Assembly: GCF_022662015.1 (NCBI RefSeq)
Contig: NZ_JAKMCM010000003.1
Location: 62,001 to 126,000 of the forward strand
Direction of reading: 5' to 3'
DNA length: 64,000 nt
DNA from: Aestuariivivens sediminicola
GTDB taxonomy: Bacteria > Bacteroidota > Bacteroidia > Flavobacteriales > Flavobacteriaceae
Each line of letters starts with the position of its first letter. Position 1 is the stretch's first letter. The notes below the pieces were generated by a model. It had not been told where the DNA came from and ran no database searches. It was given only the letters and a program-made list of their open reading frames with translations. Of the stretch, positions 12,391-19,972 are shown piece by piece. The position numbers and the translations under genes were made by a program.

Positions 12391-15300
12391 CTATTTCTTG
12401 ATGATGCTCACATTCATTTCCTCAACTTTTTTATCAGGTAAGGGTGATGGTGAACCAAACAATAAGTCTTCGCTCGTTCCTGTTTTGGGAAATGCCATTA
12501 CCTCTCTGATAGAAACTTTTTTCTCCAGTATCATCATTAAACGGTCTATCCCCCAGGCAATACCGCCATGGGGTGGCGCCCCGTAATGAAATGCTTTGTA
12601 CATGGTGCCTACACTTTTCAACATCCCTTCTTTATCATACCCCATATTTCTGTAAGTAGCTTCCAAAATTTCCGGTTTATGGGCCCGAATCGATCCACCT
12701 CCAATTTCATAACCATTTAAAATCAGATCGTATTGTTGGGCAATGATACCTTCTATTTCATGCGGCTTACCACTTATGTGTTTTTCAATATCCTCAACTC
12801 TGGGCATTGAAAAGGGATTATGGGTAAAGGTCCAATCGCCTTCTTCAGTTTTTTCAAACATCGGGAAATCTACTATCCATGCCGGCCTTAATTCTTTAGG
12901 GTTAATGAGGTTAAGCATTTTACCCAAGGCTTGTCTCACGGCATCCAGGGCTTTATTAGCCGTTTCGTAATTGGCAGCCGAGAAAAATACAATGTCACCA
13001 ATTTTTGCATGTGTCGTATCAATAATATGCTGTGCAATCTCCTCGCCAAGAAATTTAATGATTGGAGATTGTAAATCGTTTTCATTCACGATGATATAGG
13101 CCAATCCACCTAAACCATTCTCCTGCGCGATCGATGTCAATGTTTCTATTTGGCCTTTGGAAAGCCGCTTTTTACCTTGTTCTTCGGCCGAAACTTTGAT
13201 ACATTTTACAATGCCCCCGTCATCAATGGGTTTGCTAAATACCTGGAATGAAGTTTCTTTAACAATATGTGTGATGTCCTGTAAATGTAATCCGAAACGT
13301 AAATCAGGTCGGTCACAACCATATTTATCCATAGCATCCTTGTAGGTGATCACTTCAAAGGGATGAAGAATCCACTTTTTTCCATAAATTTGGGTAACGA
13401 CTTCATTAAACAAATTGGTGTTTAAATCAATAATATCTTGCATACCTACATAGGCCATTTCAATATCCAATTGGGTGAATTCCGGCTGCCTGTCCCCCCT
13501 TGAATCCTCGTCTCTAAAACAACGTGCAATCTGGAAATATTTCTCATACCCGCTTACCATTAATATTTGTTTAAATTGTTGAGGTGCCTGAGGCAGCGTG
13601 TAAAAAGAACCGGCTTTCTTTCGGGTAGGAACAATAAACTCCCTGGCACCTTCATCGGTTCCGGCCGTTAAAATTGGCGTTTCAACTTCTAAAAAATCCT
13701 GTGTATCTAAGATATCACGAATTAATTTAATGACTTTATGTCTGTTTATTATCGCTCGACGAACATCTTTATTTCTATGGTCTAGATATTTATATTGAAA
13801 TCGAACGGATTCATTTGTTTTATGAGATCTCTTTATTTCAAAAGGAAGCGTTCTCGATAAATTAATAATGTCCAGATGGTTTGCTTCTAATTCAATAGTG
13901 CCTGTTCTTAGTCCGGGATTGAAATCGTCAGGACTCCGTTTCACAACAATACCGGATACAGTAATGACCGATTCCGGCTTTAACCTGACTAATTCATCAA
14001 GATTTGGAAAAGATTCCCTGCTCAACCGTACCTGAAATGTTTCATGACTGGAATCTCTTAAATCAATAAAGATCAATTCGCCATGATCGCGAACACTTGA
14101 AACCCATCCTGCTAAAGTTACCGCTTGAGCGATGGAACTTTCGGAAAGCTGTGATGCCTTGTGGGTGCGATATGAATTTTTAATAACAATTGGTATTTCA
14201 GGTAATTTCTCTTCCTCAATCTTACTTCCCTTAAACTCCTTTTTAGCTGAGGTGGTCTTAGTTGAAAACGACGATGTGGTTTGTACGTCCTCAGTTGCAG
14301 TTCGCAATTGATCAATGATGCTTTCACGGATCATTTTTCCTGATGCACCTTTTCCAATTATGGCTATCACTTTACCAACTAAAATACCGGCCTTACCAAT
14401 GTTCCCGGCTTTTATCTCCTTTGCTATGACATCATTTTCCTGAATGACTTTACGTATCGCAGTATCTATTTTGTCCTTTGAAATTGTATTTTTTTCAAAA
14501 TAGGAAAGGTAGTCGAAATCAGCATTTTTCAATAACATCGAAATCGCATGCTGTGCCAAAACAGGTGTCACTTGTTCATCCTTAAATAGCTTGAATATAC
14601 TTATGAAATCTGAGATGTTAGAGATTTTCGAATAGGCTTCTGATTTTATATTATTGGTTAGTGTTTTGGCAACAAACAACGGGTCTTGTAAAACGTTGTT
14701 AATGGTGACAAAAGTTCGGGAACGCACAGGATCGGCTGTAAAGAATTTCGCATCCTGAGGTAAAACGCCGCCTTTTATCAATATAGATTCAACAGCAAAA
14801 GGCAAGGCACTTATATCTACATTGATGCGACTTACAGCGTCCTTAATAGTAACGAAAGGGAGGTCTGGTTCCGAGATGAAACGGTAGTCCGCTTCGTATT
14901 CCTTTTTACGCATGGTTCGCGTTTGCTTCAAGTCTGCATCAAAAAGAACCGTTGTTTGGTCCGGTCGGAATGTCTTATGTTCTAAATAGTAATTCAGTTG
15001 CTTTTCGACCTCCTCTTTTAATGCTTCGACCATGAACTTAAAGGAGTTGAGGTTCTTGATTTCGGTACGTGGATTCAGGTTGTAACTATGTTTTTTTCTG
15101 AGAGATACCGAAACATCACTTTTAAACTCTCCTTTTTCTAAATTGGCTTCCGATATTTTTAAGTTCTGAACGATGCGTTGAATATATTGTGCATAGGTTG
15201 AAGCATCCTCAATATGTCTGATGCATGGTTCGGTTACAATTTCAATGAGAGGAACACCGGCTTTATTAAAATCAACCAAAGATATTTTTTTCTCATGGAT

Positions 15301-15732
15301 TAATTTAGCGGCGTCCTCTTCAATGTGGACCTGCGTCAGGTTGACAGTAAATTGAGAACCATCATTTCTAAAACAGGATACTTGTCCATCGGGGATGATA
15401 GGGTTATGAAATTGGGTTATTTGAATGTTTTTTGGGTTGTCCGGATACTCATAGTGTTTTCGATCCCATGAGATCACATCATTTTCAAAGGTTGATTTTA
15501 CCGCCTTACCAAAGAAGATGGCCTTTTTTACCGCCTCTTTGTTAACAGCAGGGAGTACTCCCATTTGCCCTGTGCATACGGGGCATATGTTCGTATTGGG
15601 TATATCTGATTCCTCGTTGGCACAAGAACAAAATAATTTTGTCTTGGTATTTAATCGCACATGGGTTTCTAGCCCGATGACTAACTCTATTTCGTGTGCT
15701 TTCAGAAGTTCATTCAATTGTTCCAAATCCAT
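12391..15732 (-). CDS. gatB-aspS: GatB-AspRS fusion: tRNA amidotransferase subunit B + aspartyl-tRNA synthetase
   Basis: A 1113-residue two-enzyme protein. Residues 1 to about 475 are GatB: the cradle domain has zinc ligands FCSC (35-37) and CPVC (50-53), and the C-terminal GatB/YqeY tail ends near KAGILVGKVIAIIGKGASGK. A Ser/Thr/Lys-rich linker (about 476-515) leads to a complete bacterial-type AspRS. That part has an OB-fold anticodon domain, class II motifs (FRDEDSRGDRQPEFTQLD), a GAD insertion, and motif 3 in GGIAWGIDRLMMI. In the anticodon domain the sequence is RDHG with His550. As I recall, Pseudomonas aeruginosa non-discriminating AspRS has His here and the discriminating E. coli enzyme has Leu. 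The start overlaps the gatA stop by one base (TAATG), so translation is coupled. The pair would make Asp-tRNA-Asn and pass it for amidation. Confidence 0.95.
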   Translation of the reverse strand: MDLEQLNELLKAHEIELVIGLETHVRLNTKTKLFCSCANEESDIPNTNICPVCTGQMGVLPAVNKEAVKKAIFFGKAVKSTFENDVISWDRKHYEYPDNPKNIQITQFHNPIIPDGQVSCFRNDGSQFTVNLTQVHIEEDAAKLIHEKKISLVDFNKAGVPLIEIVTEPCIRHIEDASTYAQYIQRIVQNLKISEANLEKGEFKSDVSVSLRKKHSYNLNPRTEIKNLNSFKFMVEALKEEVEKQLNYYLEHKTFRPDQTTVLFDADLKQTRTMRKKEYEADYRFISEPDLPFVTIKDAVSRINVDISALPFAVESILIKGGVLPQDAKFFTADPVRSRTFVTINNVLQDPLFVAKTLTNNIKSEAYSKISNISDFISIFKLFKDEQVTPVLAQHAISMLLKNADFDYLSYFEKNTISKDKIDTAIRKVIQENDVIAKEIKAGNIGKAGILVGKVIAIIGKGASGKMIRESIIDQLRTATEDVQTTSSFSTKTTSAKKEFKGSKIEEEKLPEIPIVIKNSYRTHKASQLSESSIAQAVTLAGWVSSVRDHGELIFIDLRDSSHETFQVRLSRESFPNLDELVRLKPESVITVSGIVVKRSPDDFNPGLRTGTIELEANHLDIINLSRTLPFEIKRSHKTNESVRFQYKYLDHRNKDVRRAIINRHKVIKLIRDILDTQDFLEVETPILTAGTDEGAREFIVPTRKKAGSFYTLPQAPQQFKQILMVSGYEKYFQIARCFRDEDSRGDRQPEFTQLDIEMAYVGMQDIIDLNTNLFNEVVTQIYGKKWILHPFEVITYKDAMDKYGCDRPDLRFGLHLQDITHIVKETSFQVFSKPIDDGGIVKCIKVSAEEQGKKRLSKGQIETLTSIAQENGLGGLAYIIVNENDLQSPIIKFLGEEIAQHIIDTTHAKIGDIVFFSAANYETANKALDAVRQALGKMLNLINPKELRPAWIVDFPMFEKTEEGDWTFTHNPFSMPRVEDIEKHISGKPHEIEGIIAQQYDLILNGYEIGGGSIRAHKPEILEATYRNMGYDKEGMLKSVGTMYKAFHYGAPPHGGIAWGIDRLMMILEKKVSIREVMAFPKTGTSEDLLFGSPSPLPDKKVEEMNVSIIKK

Positions 15733-17132
15733 TATATCACATCTTTTAAAAAGTTAGAAAACTTCAATATAACCTCATCTCTGTCTTTGGCAGCCGTTAT
15801 TTGCAAACCCGTAACGGTTCCCTGAGGTATTGTTAATGTAGGAAGTTGTCCCAGACTGAATCCCACGGTGTACGCATCAGAAAGGTACATTGCCAACGGA
15901 TCTTTTAAACTGCTTCCAATAATTGGTGGTTTAATCGGTGTCACCGGAGATATTATAATGTCAACTTCTTTGAAATCCTTTTCAAAATTTTCTTTGATCT
16001 GATCGCGTATCGCCAATGCTTTTAGGTAAATTTCATCTGAAAAACCCTGCGAAAGCACTTGGTTTCCACCAACAATCCGGCGTTTGGTTTCTTCCGAAAA
16101 ATTTTCTGACCGCGTAAGTGCATAGGTTTCTTTTAGGGATTCGGCTTCAATACGGTTGCCGTAGTTGGTGCCATCTAATCGTGATAAATTTGAGGCGGTT
16201 TCACCCATTGCCAATGTATAGTATGTCGATACCAGGGTTTCGGAATCAAAAAAATCCAATTCCTTAACCTCAATGCCTTCTGATTTCAGTTTCTCAATAA
16301 CCTCTAGAAATTCTGATTTAATCGTTGGATCAATAGCGTCATTTTCAATGAAATTCTTAAAATAACCAACCGAAGCAACAGGGTCAGCACTGTCAATACT
16401 ATCGATCGAAATGGGTTCCGAAGTATAGGTAGTTTGATCCTTGGGATCCTGACCGCTCATTGTATTCAATAGAATGCCGATGTCTTCAATACTTTTAGCA
16501 AGAGGTCCTACACAATCTGTTGAAGATGCATAGGCCATGAGGCCATATCGTGAAATGCGACCATAAGTAGGCTTTAAACCATAAACCTTATTGTAACCGG
16601 CAGGCTGACGCACAGATCCCCCTGTATCCCCTCCAATGGAAAATACGGTGTAATCTTTGGCAACATTTACTGCCGAACCTCCACTCGAGCCTCCGGCAAC
16701 CAAATTGGGATCGGTAGCATTTTTAACAGCTCCGAAAACGGTGTTTTCGCTCGATGACCCATGTCCGAAACTGTCACAGTTCTCCTTTACAATAGGAATA
16801 GCCCCTGCATCCATTAACTTTTGGATAGCTGTTGCAGTATATGCTGATGTGTAATTCCTTAACAATTTAGAACTCGCTGTAGTCCTTGTTCCCTGAACCA
16901 TAAAGACATCTTTTACACCAAAAGGGATGCCCTCTAAAAGACCAATCGTCTCTCCGGAAGCAATTTTAGCGTCGACCTTAACGGCTAATTCCAATGCAAG
17001 GTCATCCAATAAACTATTCACCGTATTATGAGTGTTCTTTTTTAGCAGATTTAATTTTTCCTGGACCAAAGATTTACAGGAAATTTTTTTGTCCACTAAT
17101 AATTGATGCAGTTTTTGTATTTGAGATTCCAT
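15732..17132 (-). CDS. gatA: Asp-tRNA(Asn)/Glu-tRNA(Gln) amidotransferase subunit A
   Basis: GatA is the glutaminase subunit that frees ammonia for the amidation of Asp-tRNA-Asn or Glu-tRNA-Gln. The 466-residue protein has the amidase Ser-cisSer-Lys triad: Lys74 in GVKDVF, the cis-Ser at about 149 in GGSSGGSA, and the nucleophile Ser173 in GGDTGGSVRQPA. It is slightly shorter than the usual 480 or so residues. It starts 2 nt after the gatC stop, and its own stop overlaps the GatB-AspRS start, so the three genes form one tightly coupled unit. Given the AspRS fused to its partner, the Asn route is the more likely main job. Confidence 0.96.
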   Translation of the reverse strand: MESQIQKLHQLLVDKKISCKSLVQEKLNLLKKNTHNTVNSLLDDLALELAVKVDAKIASGETIGLLEGIPFGVKDVFMVQGTRTTASSKLLRNYTSAYTATAIQKLMDAGAIPIVKENCDSFGHGSSSENTVFGAVKNATDPNLVAGGSSGGSAVNVAKDYTVFSIGGDTGGSVRQPAGYNKVYGLKPTYGRISRYGLMAYASSTDCVGPLAKSIEDIGILLNTMSGQDPKDQTTYTSEPISIDSIDSADPVASVGYFKNFIENDAIDPTIKSEFLEVIEKLKSEGIEVKELDFFDSETLVSTYYTLAMGETASNLSRLDGTNYGNRIEAESLKETYALTRSENFSEETKRRIVGGNQVLSQGFSDEIYLKALAIRDQIKENFEKDFKEVDIIISPVTPIKPPIIGSSLKDPLAMYLSDAYTVGFSLGQLPTLTIPQGTVTGLQITAAKDRDEVILKFSNFLKDVI

Positions 17133-17134
17133 GA

Positions 17135-17404
17135 CTATTCTTCAATTACTTTTGATACGACCAAATAGTTGTCCTTGGCTTGTGGGAAGTTTTGAATGAT
17201 GATCTTTTTTTCAACTTCAGAACTTTCAATAATGACGTCGTCCCTTAAATCATCCAATGGTACAGCATCATTATGCCTATGAGGAAAGGTATTATCTGCT
17301 GGCAAATTGGCGTTTTTAATAACTTCAAAAAGTTTATTTACTGCTTCACTGGGTACAGCACCTTTAATACTTGACAGGATGTCGACAGTCATAATTTTAC
17401 TCAT
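17135..17404 (-). CDS. gatC: Amidotransferase subunit GatC
   Basis: An 89-residue GatC, the small subunit that wraps between GatA and GatB. The sequence is divergent, but the typical end is present: a VPLDDLRDDVIIES segment matching the conserved LRxD, then NFPQAKDNYLVVSKVIEE matching the usual A-P-x-x-x-x-x-F-x-V-P-K-V-I-E tail. It is the first structural gene of the operon. It starts 18 nt downstream of an intrinsic terminator that follows an asparagine-rich leader peptide, so its expression should depend on terminator readthrough. An ATG four codons later is an alternative start. Confidence 0.85.
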   Translation of the reverse strand: MSKIMTVDILSSIKGAVPSEAVNKLFEVIKNANLPADNTFPHRHNDAVPLDDLRDDVIIESSEVEKKIIIQNFPQAKDNYLVVSKVIEE

Positions 17405-17422
17405 GGCTTTTGATTTTTAATT

Positions 17423-17500
17423 AAAAAAGCCCTCCGTATCCGGAAGGCTTAAATGATATTTTTAAACAATAACCTCCCAACCCTATTTCATAGGATTATT
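17423..17500 (-). promoter_or_regulatory. Attenuator of gatCA-gatB::aspS (pause stem, antiterminator, terminator)
   Basis: Four segments are seen on the minus strand. Segment 1 is AATAATCCT (17500-17492), inside the last two Asn codons of the leader peptide. Segment 2 is GGGAGGTTATT (17478-17468). Segment 3 is AAGCCTTCC (17450-17442). Segment 4 completes the terminator, a 10-bp stem AAGCCTTCCG/CGGAGGGCTT with a GATA loop and six T. Segments 1 and 2 pair (AATAA-CCT with AGG-TTATT, one bulge). Segments 2 and 3 pair (GGGAGG with CCTTCC, one G-U, plus TT with AA). The stem is fully paired only on this strand; on the plus strand it has a C-A mismatch. These are the mutually exclusive folds of a peptide-leader attenuator. 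That it works as such is inference. Confidence 0.7.
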
Positions 17501-17530
17501 GAAATTATTATTGTTATTATTTAATCGCAT
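17483..17530 (-). CDS. Asparagine-rich leader peptide of the gat-aspS operon
   Basis: A 15-codon frame, MRLNNNNNNFNNPMK, with eight Asn codons (seven AAT, one AAC). It begins about 10 nt after the predicted transcription start and ends in TAG. Ribosome stalling on the Asn run for lack of Asn-tRNA would cover segment 1 of the adjoining attenuator and favour the antiterminator. A ribosome reaching the stop codon would cover segment 2 and allow the terminator. The operon's enzymes can make Asn-tRNA-Asn, so codon content and product match. AT-rich DNA yields AAT runs easily, so the case rests on the combination with promoter, terminator and antiterminator. Confidence 0.65.
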   Translation of the reverse strand: MRLNNNNNNFNNPMK

Positions 17531-17546
17531 AAAAATTTTTGTGCAC

Positions 17547-17554
17547 CAAATATA
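17547..17554 (-). promoter_or_regulatory. -7 promoter element of the gat-aspS leader (TATATTTG)
   Basis: Exact TAnnTTTG on the minus strand, 17 nt upstream of the leader peptide ATG. The transcript should start near 17540. No TTG was found at the -33 distance. Confidence 0.55.
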
Positions 17555-17879
17555 TATAGAAATAACGTATTACACATAATTTTTTTCGATATAGTTCATC
17601 GTATTATGAAATTAATAGAAAACATATGAATTGTTTGATGGTATTCTAAATTTAGGTGTTTTTGGATTGTTTTTTTATATGACCAATGAAGATGGCCGCT
17701 GAAAAATATCGTGTTTAAGACATTAAAATTTTTTGAATGATTTTTAATCCTTAAAAAAATGCCCAAAATCAATTTTAAGATGGTTTTTAGGCGATTTAAG
17801 AGACTTTTAAGAAATTAACAATTGTTGATAATTATTGCTCAAACGCGTTAAAATGCTTTTTAACGGGGCTTTTATTTCG
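17555..17879. other. Gene-free stretch between the gat-aspS and gyrB promoters
   Basis: About 325 nt of very AT-rich sequence separating two divergent promoters. I see no reading frame of substance, no tRNA, and no hairpin followed by a T-run. An AACAATTGTT palindrome lies near 17816-17826, close to the gyrB promoter, but nothing else marks it as an operator. Confidence 0.4.
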
Positions 17880-17896: not shown

Positions 17897-17983
17897 AAAA
17901 TGATGCTTTTGCATCATTTTTTTATGTTTTTGAATTCGGAATTTTAGTGATGGAACAGACCCCTCCGAGAGTAGGGTATGTTC
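17897..17983 (+). promoter_or_regulatory. Two hairpins in the gyrB leader
   Basis: The first is AAAATGATGC/GCATCATTTT, a perfect 10-bp stem with a TTTT loop and a run of T behind it. It starts within about 5 nt of the predicted transcript start. The second, at 17953-17983, pairs GAACA-ACCC with GGGT-TGTTC across a one-base internal mismatch. The first looks like a terminator but is too near the start to end a normal nascent RNA. A 5'-end stabilising stem is the likelier reading. Confidence 0.4.

Positions 17984-18016: not shown

Positions 18017-19972
<1,956 letters not shown>

Follow-up and report, generated by a model that had tools for sequence, protein, structure and literature searches.

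Peptide-leader attenuators are the textbook means of control of the trp, his, phe and branched-chain amino acid operons. The asparagine genes of Firmicutes are preceded by T-box leaders, which sense the status of Asn-tRNA and act by antitermination, through direct binding of the tRNA and with no peptide ORF. Among the Bacteroidota, a 'Bacteroidete tryptophan peptide leader RNA' (Bacteroid-trp, RF01692) is listed in Weinberg et al. 2010 (PMC2864571), and for Flavobacterium psychrophilum there are clues to leader-peptide attenuation at amino-acid biosynthesis operons, together with structured 5' elements before pheA, hisG and others (PMC9723704). As for the synthesis of asparagine itself, Deinococcus, Thermus and Bdellovibrio possess AsnRS, GatCAB and AspRS with no asparagine synthetase and make asparagine on the tRNA; some Bacteroidetes are named among the genera with AsnRS and GatCAB that have no asparagine synthetase, and a second AspRS was found among such genera only in Deinococcus-Thermus, where it is of archaeal type (PMC4206432). 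The passages of that article devoted to these two-route organisms describe neither an attenuator nor a gatB::aspS fusion.

The window analysed here, a stretch of 64,000 nucleotides from Aestuariivivens sediminicola (Flavobacteriaceae), carries on its minus strand a leader that, with a probability of roughly 0.88, is a ribosome-mediated transcription attenuator with asparagine as the regulatory codon, placed before a probable operon for tRNA-dependent asparagine synthesis. The first-pass annotation of this DNA had proposed such an element and had named no precedent known to it, either for an Asn-tRNA pathway or in this phylum. For the phylum this has to be given up in view of Bacteroid-trp and the F. 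psychrophilum leaders. For asparagine, no Asn-specific peptide-leader attenuator was found in a literature search whose coverage of subscription journals was poor, and Naville and Gautheret 2010, in its main text, uses no word starting with Bacteroid, asparag or gatC. Bacteroid-trp itself has no match in the window at its gathering score and none at 17380-17640 up to an E value of 10. The best Rfam match of the leader is Phe_leader (RF01859), which reaches 30.5 bits where the gathering score is 55, a resemblance of layout only; T-box likewise has no match over its gathering score in the window, where a tRNA alone passes. The parts of the locus are as follows.

17554-17423, minus strand: putative attenuator leader as a whole, read from the sequence, preceding gatC-gatA-gatB::aspS
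17547..17554, minus strand: -7 promoter element TATATTTG, fitting the flavobacterial sigma-A pattern TAnnTTTG (sequence)
17483..17530, minus strand: leader peptide ORF MRLNNNNNNFNNPMK, 15 codons with eight Asn, ATG at 17530 and TAG at 17485-17483 (sequence)
17501..17515, minus strand: segment 1, AACAATAATAATTTC, within the Asn codons (RNAalifold consensus and pair counts)
17481..17495, minus strand: small hairpin TCCTA...TAGGG containing the stop codon (consensus fold, with 99.2% of cells paired across 72 leaders)
17465..17478, minus strand: segment 2, GGGAGGTTATTGTT (consensus fold and alignment)
17478-17473, minus strand: GGGAGG, the start of segment 2, 4 nt past the stop codon (sequence)
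17442..17447, minus strand: segment 3, CCTTCC, common to the antiterminator 2:3 and the terminator 3:4 (alignment)
17427..17450, minus strand: intrinsic terminator (3:4), stem AAGCCTTCCG/CGGAGGGCTT, 10 pairs, 6 GC (sequence and covariation)
17423..17428, minus strand: T run of the terminator, six T (sequence)
17135..17404, minus strand: gatC, 89 aa, first gene of the operon (position before gatA and gatB)
15732..17132, minus strand: gatA, 466 aa (TIGR00132 at 440 bits, below the cut-off of 481)
12391..15732, minus strand: gatB::aspS fusion, 1113 aa in a single frame (GatB at about residues 14-477, AspRS at about 519-1112)

The -7 box, the 15-residue peptide with eight Asn and the 10-bp terminator with six T before gatC had all been named in the first-pass annotation and were confirmed on the sequence. 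The pattern TAnnTTTG is the flavobacterial sigma-A -7 consensus (PMC9723704), and a TAT[AC]TTTG box is present in all 21 leaders of the first sample of genomes, 16-19 nt from the ATG; a sigma-70 promoter scan returned nothing above chance. The 118-nt leader of the window has a minimum free energy of -34.7 kcal/mol, against a mean of -17.1 for shuffled sequences (z = -6.35; none of 200 shuffles as low). Because its energy lies below that of all shuffles and because the 37 strong matches of a covariance model, described below, all precede gatC, the leader element is real and not a product of chance.

Also present in the window, on the plus strand at 17897-17920, is a 10-pair hairpin (AAAATGATGC/GCATCATTTT) followed by T, about 110 bases before a gyrB-like ORF at 18032; immediately 5' of this hairpin, the gyrB coding strand has no ORF reaching 60 aa. 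The hairpin may be an attenuator or regulator of gyrB.

A search for GatC in 199 genomes of the family found it in 33. The search returned 30 gatC loci, 21 with an Asn-rich leader and nine lacking it; of the remaining three gatC-positive genomes, G051 has the leader and G113 and G180 do not, which gives 22 of the 33 with a leader and 11 without. A covariance model (R1) built from the 21 leaders and run over 397 genomes of the family matched 37 places at 86.8 bits or more, the next match scoring 57.7 and those that follow 46.4 or less. All 37 lie directly upstream of gatC, 35 as recognized by motif and two by eye. Eighteen weaker matches, none above 57.7 bits, do not count among the 37; 11 of them were searched again and six of these were read as alignments, which looked terminator-like with no Asn run. 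In public genomes of named species, 228 stretches encode a GatC relative, and among the best 80 of the 228, which overlap in species with the 397 family genomes, R1 matches 56 and has no match in 24. The gatC operon can thus do without the leader, since it is absent from 11 of the 33 genomes and from 24 of the 80 named loci. Removal of near-duplicates left 72 distinct leaders, named relatives included, which were aligned. In another family of the same class, eight GatC-like loci (L180-L187) have neither a leader-like Asn ORF nor an R1 match, and a ninth (L188, E value 8.6e-4) has no R1 match.

All nine leaderless loci of the first sample (L010, L013, L015, L016, L019, L022, L025, L026 and L029) share another upstream stretch near gatC, AAA[AT]CTTT[CT]GTAATTTT; it is as if the attenuator and the promoter had been swapped out together in these operons.

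Every one of the 72 distinct leaders encodes 7-10 Asn codons within 14-17 codons. Among the 1002 codons of these leaders (start codons excluded), 638 are AAT or AAC (64% Asn) and 21 are AAA or AAG; the gatA and gatB::aspS genes of the window together use 73 AAT/AAC and 131 AAA/AAG. The choice between the two Asn codons varies along the peptide. Counting back from the stop, codon -11 is AAT in 42 leaders and AAC in 26, and codon -12 is AAT in 51 and AAC in 12, an exchange which indicates that Asn decoding has been kept and not one particular string of nucleotides. Codons -9, -7 and -4 fall within or next to paired segments and read AAT in 71, 72 and 72 of the 72; codon -10 is AAC in 59. The stop is TAG in 71 leaders and TAA in one, the TAG forming part of the small hairpin CCTA...TAGG. 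In the aligned leaders, then, positions at which the RNA may vary preserve the amino acid, and positions that pair preserve the letters. Relatives have conserved both the Asn-rich frame and the paired segments, the comparison that the first-pass annotation had proposed as a check, and enrichment of the leader ORF in codons of the pathway amino acid, kept as codons, is found in 72 of 72. It weighs against an attenuator that Asn codons are AT-rich and that the genome is AT-rich as well.

The consensus fold comprises a 13-pair helix of segment 1 (AACAATAAT..TTTC) with segment 2 (GAAGGTTATTGTT), the stop-codon hairpin and the terminator. In the window the best 1:2 helix pairs AACAATAAT-aa-TTTC (17515-17501) with GGGAGGTTATTGTT (17478-17465) and encloses the stop-codon hairpin. 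The 1:2 pairing named in the first-pass annotation, AATAATCCT:AGGTTATT, is possible, with 96.8% of cells paired, although it is a shorter register than the best consensus helix, and it displays no covariation above shuffles in the 72 sequences. For the 1:2 helix with the hairpin, 95.7% of cells are paired, a figure that drops to 43-64% when the segments are slid against each other; the 1:2 helix, too, has no covariation above shuffles in the same 72. The 2:3 pairing, which shares segment 3 with the terminator, has 89.9% of cells paired, and 21 of 500 shuffles reach its covariation score, while the terminator 3:4 has 95.4% of cells paired and a covariation score above all 500. Covarying stems, proposed at the outset as a further check, were therefore found for the terminator, but 1:2 and 2:3 are not clearly above shuffles, for which reason these two helices rest on sequence conservation. 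All six letters of segment 3, CCTTCC, are identical in 72 of 72 aligned leaders. Between the leader ORF and the first structural gene there is thus an intrinsic terminator, with its stem, T run and covariation, as an attenuator requires. The stop codon had been placed before segment 2, and so it is: the gap is 2-5 nt in 70 of 72 leaders (two unscored).

Mean fragment energies over the 72 leaders are -11.6 kcal/mol for 1:2 with the hairpin, -11.6 for 2:3 and -16.7 for 3:4. Competition between the pairings was modelled by folding a transcript that ends just past segment 3, with a ribosome assumed to mask 15 nt on the 5' side and 12 nt on the 3' side, counted from the start of the A-site codon. 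Over the 72 leaders, a stall anywhere from codon -13 to codon -4 yields a mean predicted probability of 2:3 of 0.94-0.95, the weakest leader going down to 0.17. The mean is 0.90 at codon -2 and 0.15 at codon -1; with the ribosome at the stop, where the 12 nt footprint covers segment 2, the probability is 0.00 in all 72. A footprint of 15 nt ahead also gives 0.00 in the stop state in 72 of 72, and one of 9 nt makes the stop state leakier (mean 0.15, maximum 0.62), which counts against an attenuator. So does the mean of 0.89 with no ribosome, equilibrium folding predicting 2:3 in most species. In the window itself the probability of 2:3 is 0.98-1.00 at codons -11 to -3 and 0.31 at -13; it falls to 0.00 with the ribosome at the stop and stands at 0.04 when no ribosome is present. 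According to this model, the stall and stop states differ as attenuation needs, since 2:3 under the mask is probable in a stalled leader and 0.00 at the stop; the state with no ribosome is ambiguous.

Downstream of the leader, the product of the first gene matches no NCBIfam model at an E value of 1e-10, and gatC therefore takes its name from its position ahead of gatA and gatB; the match of GatA is diverged and stays below its NCBIfam cut-off. The long frame that follows matches GatB at 391.8 bits (cut-off 338) and AspRS at 707.7 bits (cut-off 443). Its AspRS part scores as a bacterial AspRS and reaches 182.9 bits, below the cut-off of 368.4, with the non-discriminating model TIGR00458, a point against the proposed pathway. 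That model represents archaeal-type enzymes, however, and the fused AspRS may still be non-discriminating, charging Asp onto tRNA(Asn). In the genome of the window, AsnRS is found at 599 bits, a stand-alone AspRS at 716.5 bits and the fused AspRS at 646.7 bits; no asnB-family match passes the cut-off of 267.1, the best reaching 58.8, and asnA is without a match at an E value of 1e-20.

Gene content was compared in 80 genomes, the 33 with gatC and the first 47, by number, without it; as the genomes are related, the counts that follow are not independent trials. Any match to TIGR01536 over its cut-off occurs in 12 of 33 gatC-positive and 44 of 47 gatC-negative genomes, but this model mixes the AsnB of the E. 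coli type with paralogs, and matches were accordingly split by the matched span, 1 to about 385 marking the 554-aa type. The E. coli-type span is found in 0 of 33 gatC-positive and 40 of 47 gatC-negative genomes (one of the 40 incomplete), asnA in 0 of 33 and 5 of 47, and either of them in 0 of 33 against 44 of 47; the gatC-negative exceptions (G022, G041 and G055) are genomes 88, 93 and 86% complete. The split was checked on four proteins by NCBIfam and on two of these (L191 and L192) by PDB: with NF006949 (cut-off 499), L191 scores 960 bits, as expected of the E. coli type, and its best PDB match is 1ct9, the E. coli-type AsnB, while L192, L193 and L194 score 304, 252 and 235 bits, below the cut-off. 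L192 and L194 lie amid glycosyltransferase-like genes and L193 adjoins an epimerase-like gene, as judged by eye. The other asnB-family proteins over the TIGR01536 cut-off in 12 of the 33 gatC-positive genomes might make asparagine. Against the contrast in gene content, sixteen further gatC-positive genomes, picked from the named loci, include one with an E. coli-type asnB, the leaderless Flavobacterium agrisoli (span 2-388, 356 bits). Two full AspRS are present in 31 of 33 gatC-positive genomes, the other two being assemblies of about 160 and 460 contigs, and in 0 of 47 gatC-negative ones. A pattern search for the U1-A72 pair of tRNA(Asn) found no place, the allowed gap probably being too long. 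Since gatC-positive genomes mostly have a second AspRS and no E. coli-type asnB or asnA, the operon is, by gene content, probably an asparagine route, and the view that the enzymes downstream of the leader can produce Asn-tRNA(Asn), put forward in the first-pass annotation, agrees with this. On gene content, likewise, the operon would supply the amino acid to be sensed, or the tRNA charged with it.

Diverged, Asn-rich leaders (for example MTNNAQNNNWNGNNLNY) also precede gatC in three Paraglaciecola (Gammaproteobacteria), with the elements in the order peptide, TAG, GGAAGG, CCTTCC, GGAAGG and T run, as in flavobacteria; folding of one fragment (L171) did not find a 1:2 helix. At one of the loci gatA and gatB follow gatC, gatB running past the end of the stretch, so that an aspS part would lie beyond view. 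Each of the three genomes has one asnB-family match, the frames measuring 639-647 aa. In the family to which Paraglaciecola belongs, 3 of 246 genomes contain a GatC relative, all three being these Paraglaciecola, which suggests that the operon was gained horizontally. A transposase-like ORF, recognized by eye (L151:232-1410, minus strand), lies upstream of a Paraglaciecola gatC operon and fits horizontal gain. A quick 85-row tree of GatA unites the three with full support and sets them next to the flavobacterial rows, the fork there being open. The presence of the leader requires at least 9 changes on this tree (mean of 24.4 when shuffled), four of them forced by well-supported branches, which implies repeated losses, gains or transfers of the leader.

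The combination of a conserved Asn-rich leader and an operon that is probably an asparagine route makes a classical ribosome-mediated attenuator with Asn specificity probable. RNA polymerase would start just 5' of the leader ORF with a ribosome trailing it. With ample Asn-tRNA(Asn), the ribosome would pass the Asn codons and reach the TAG stop, where its leading edge would cover segment 2 (GGAAGG, about 4 nt past the stop), leaving 3:4 to pair and transcription to terminate before gatC. If Asn-tRNA(Asn) ran short, the ribosome would stall in the Asn run and cover segment 1, whereupon 2:3 would pair, no terminator would form and polymerase would enter gatC-gatA-gatB::aspS. The fused AspRS would then load Asp onto tRNA(Asn) and GatCAB would amidate the resulting Asp-tRNA(Asn). 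Termination and readthrough in the cell, and their response to the level of Asn-tRNA, are what the leader would be expected to display. As there is nearly no E. coli-type asnB or asnA in these genomes, the GatCAB operon is probably their main way to make asparagine, and the switch would thereby sense the product of its own operon.

More tentatively, and with the odds against it, the switch might read amidation and not merely charging, and might also travel between phyla with the operon as a self-contained asparagine-synthesis cassette. Elongation factor Tu rejects Asp-tRNA(Asn), and a tRNA(Asn) that is fully aminoacylated but un-amidated would, on such a reading, stall the leader ribosome. The attenuator would then report GatCAB flux, and hence glutamine or nitrogen status as well as asparagine, and a closed loop would result in which the amidotransferase controls its own synthesis via the tRNA species that it makes.

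Attenuation by ribosome position on Asn codons has to be weighed against other ways of reading the leader. The tail of the peptide, FNNP, is nearly invariant in flavobacterial leaders, as would be expected if the nascent peptide stalled the ribosome, perhaps upon binding free asparagine, as TnaC does with tryptophan. The corresponding codons, TTC-AAT-AAT-CCT, fall in segment 1 and the stop-codon hairpin, however, and pairing of the RNA can explain their conservation because they sit in paired segments. Paraglaciecola leaders, moreover, keep many Asn codons but not FNNP, and, in leaders generally, Asn is retained at positions distant from the tail with AAT or AAC as the codon, all of which makes peptide arrest quite improbable. 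The terminator could also be constitutive and partial, setting a basal level, with an ORF that has no function or that senses general translation and so any slowing of the ribosome. The gatC operons that have no leader, and the folding model, in which any stall upstream of the last codons yields 2:3, speak for this possibility; the proportion of Asn codons (64%), the synonymous exchange of AAT and AAC and the retention of Asn codons in the diverged gammaproteobacterial copy speak against it, and it deserves very little credence.

An RNA-only switch, be it T-box-like, a riboswitch or a protein-binding leader, might instead sense tRNA(Asn) or a metabolite, the Asn codons being a by-product of AT-rich pairing. 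Segments 1 and 2 are indeed AT-rich and constrained at the nucleotide level, but AAA and AAG, equally AT-rich, are almost absent, the frame is kept alike in leaders of 14, 15, 16 and 17 codons, and the window holds no Rfam family over its gathering score except a tRNA; such a switch is extremely improbable.

An attenuator with asparagine as its regulatory codon would place tRNA-dependent amidation under a control whose signal and regulated product are one and the same molecule. The leader would also be evidence that GatCAB serves asparagine supply in these Bacteroidota and could be used as a natural reporter of the level of Asn-tRNA in marine flavobacteria. A single putative attenuator layout is common to related operons in Flavobacteriaceae and a few Paraglaciecola.

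In a Polaribacter locus (L099), RF01692 matches at 1865-1978 of the minus strand with 56.2 bits (gathering score 49), about 400 bases from the Asn leader and on the opposite strand, so that two peptide leaders, Bacteroid-trp and Asn, stand side by side.

Bacteroid-trp belongs to the same phylum and is likewise a peptide leader, but according to its Rfam description it senses tryptophan. The leaders of F. psychrophilum come from the same family of bacteria; the word asparagine is absent from the main text of their description, and its passages on leader-peptide attenuation mention no gat operon (PMC9723704). The second AspRS of Deinococcus-Thermus is described as archaeal in type, whereas the one encoded here scores as bacterial and is fused to GatB. 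With the T-box leaders of asparagine genes in Firmicutes, the present leader would share the sensing of Asn-tRNA and antitermination, and it differs from them in its peptide ORF. The closest likeness is to the trp, his and phe attenuators, with which it has in common a short ORF rich in codons of the product, pairings 1:2, 2:3 and 3:4 that are predicted to be mutually exclusive, a stop codon just before segment 2 and a terminator; unlike in those systems, the codon is that of Asn and the enzymes would make the charged tRNA itself and not the free amino acid. The leader is thus most probably a known mechanism applied to a new amino acid and to a new kind of target.
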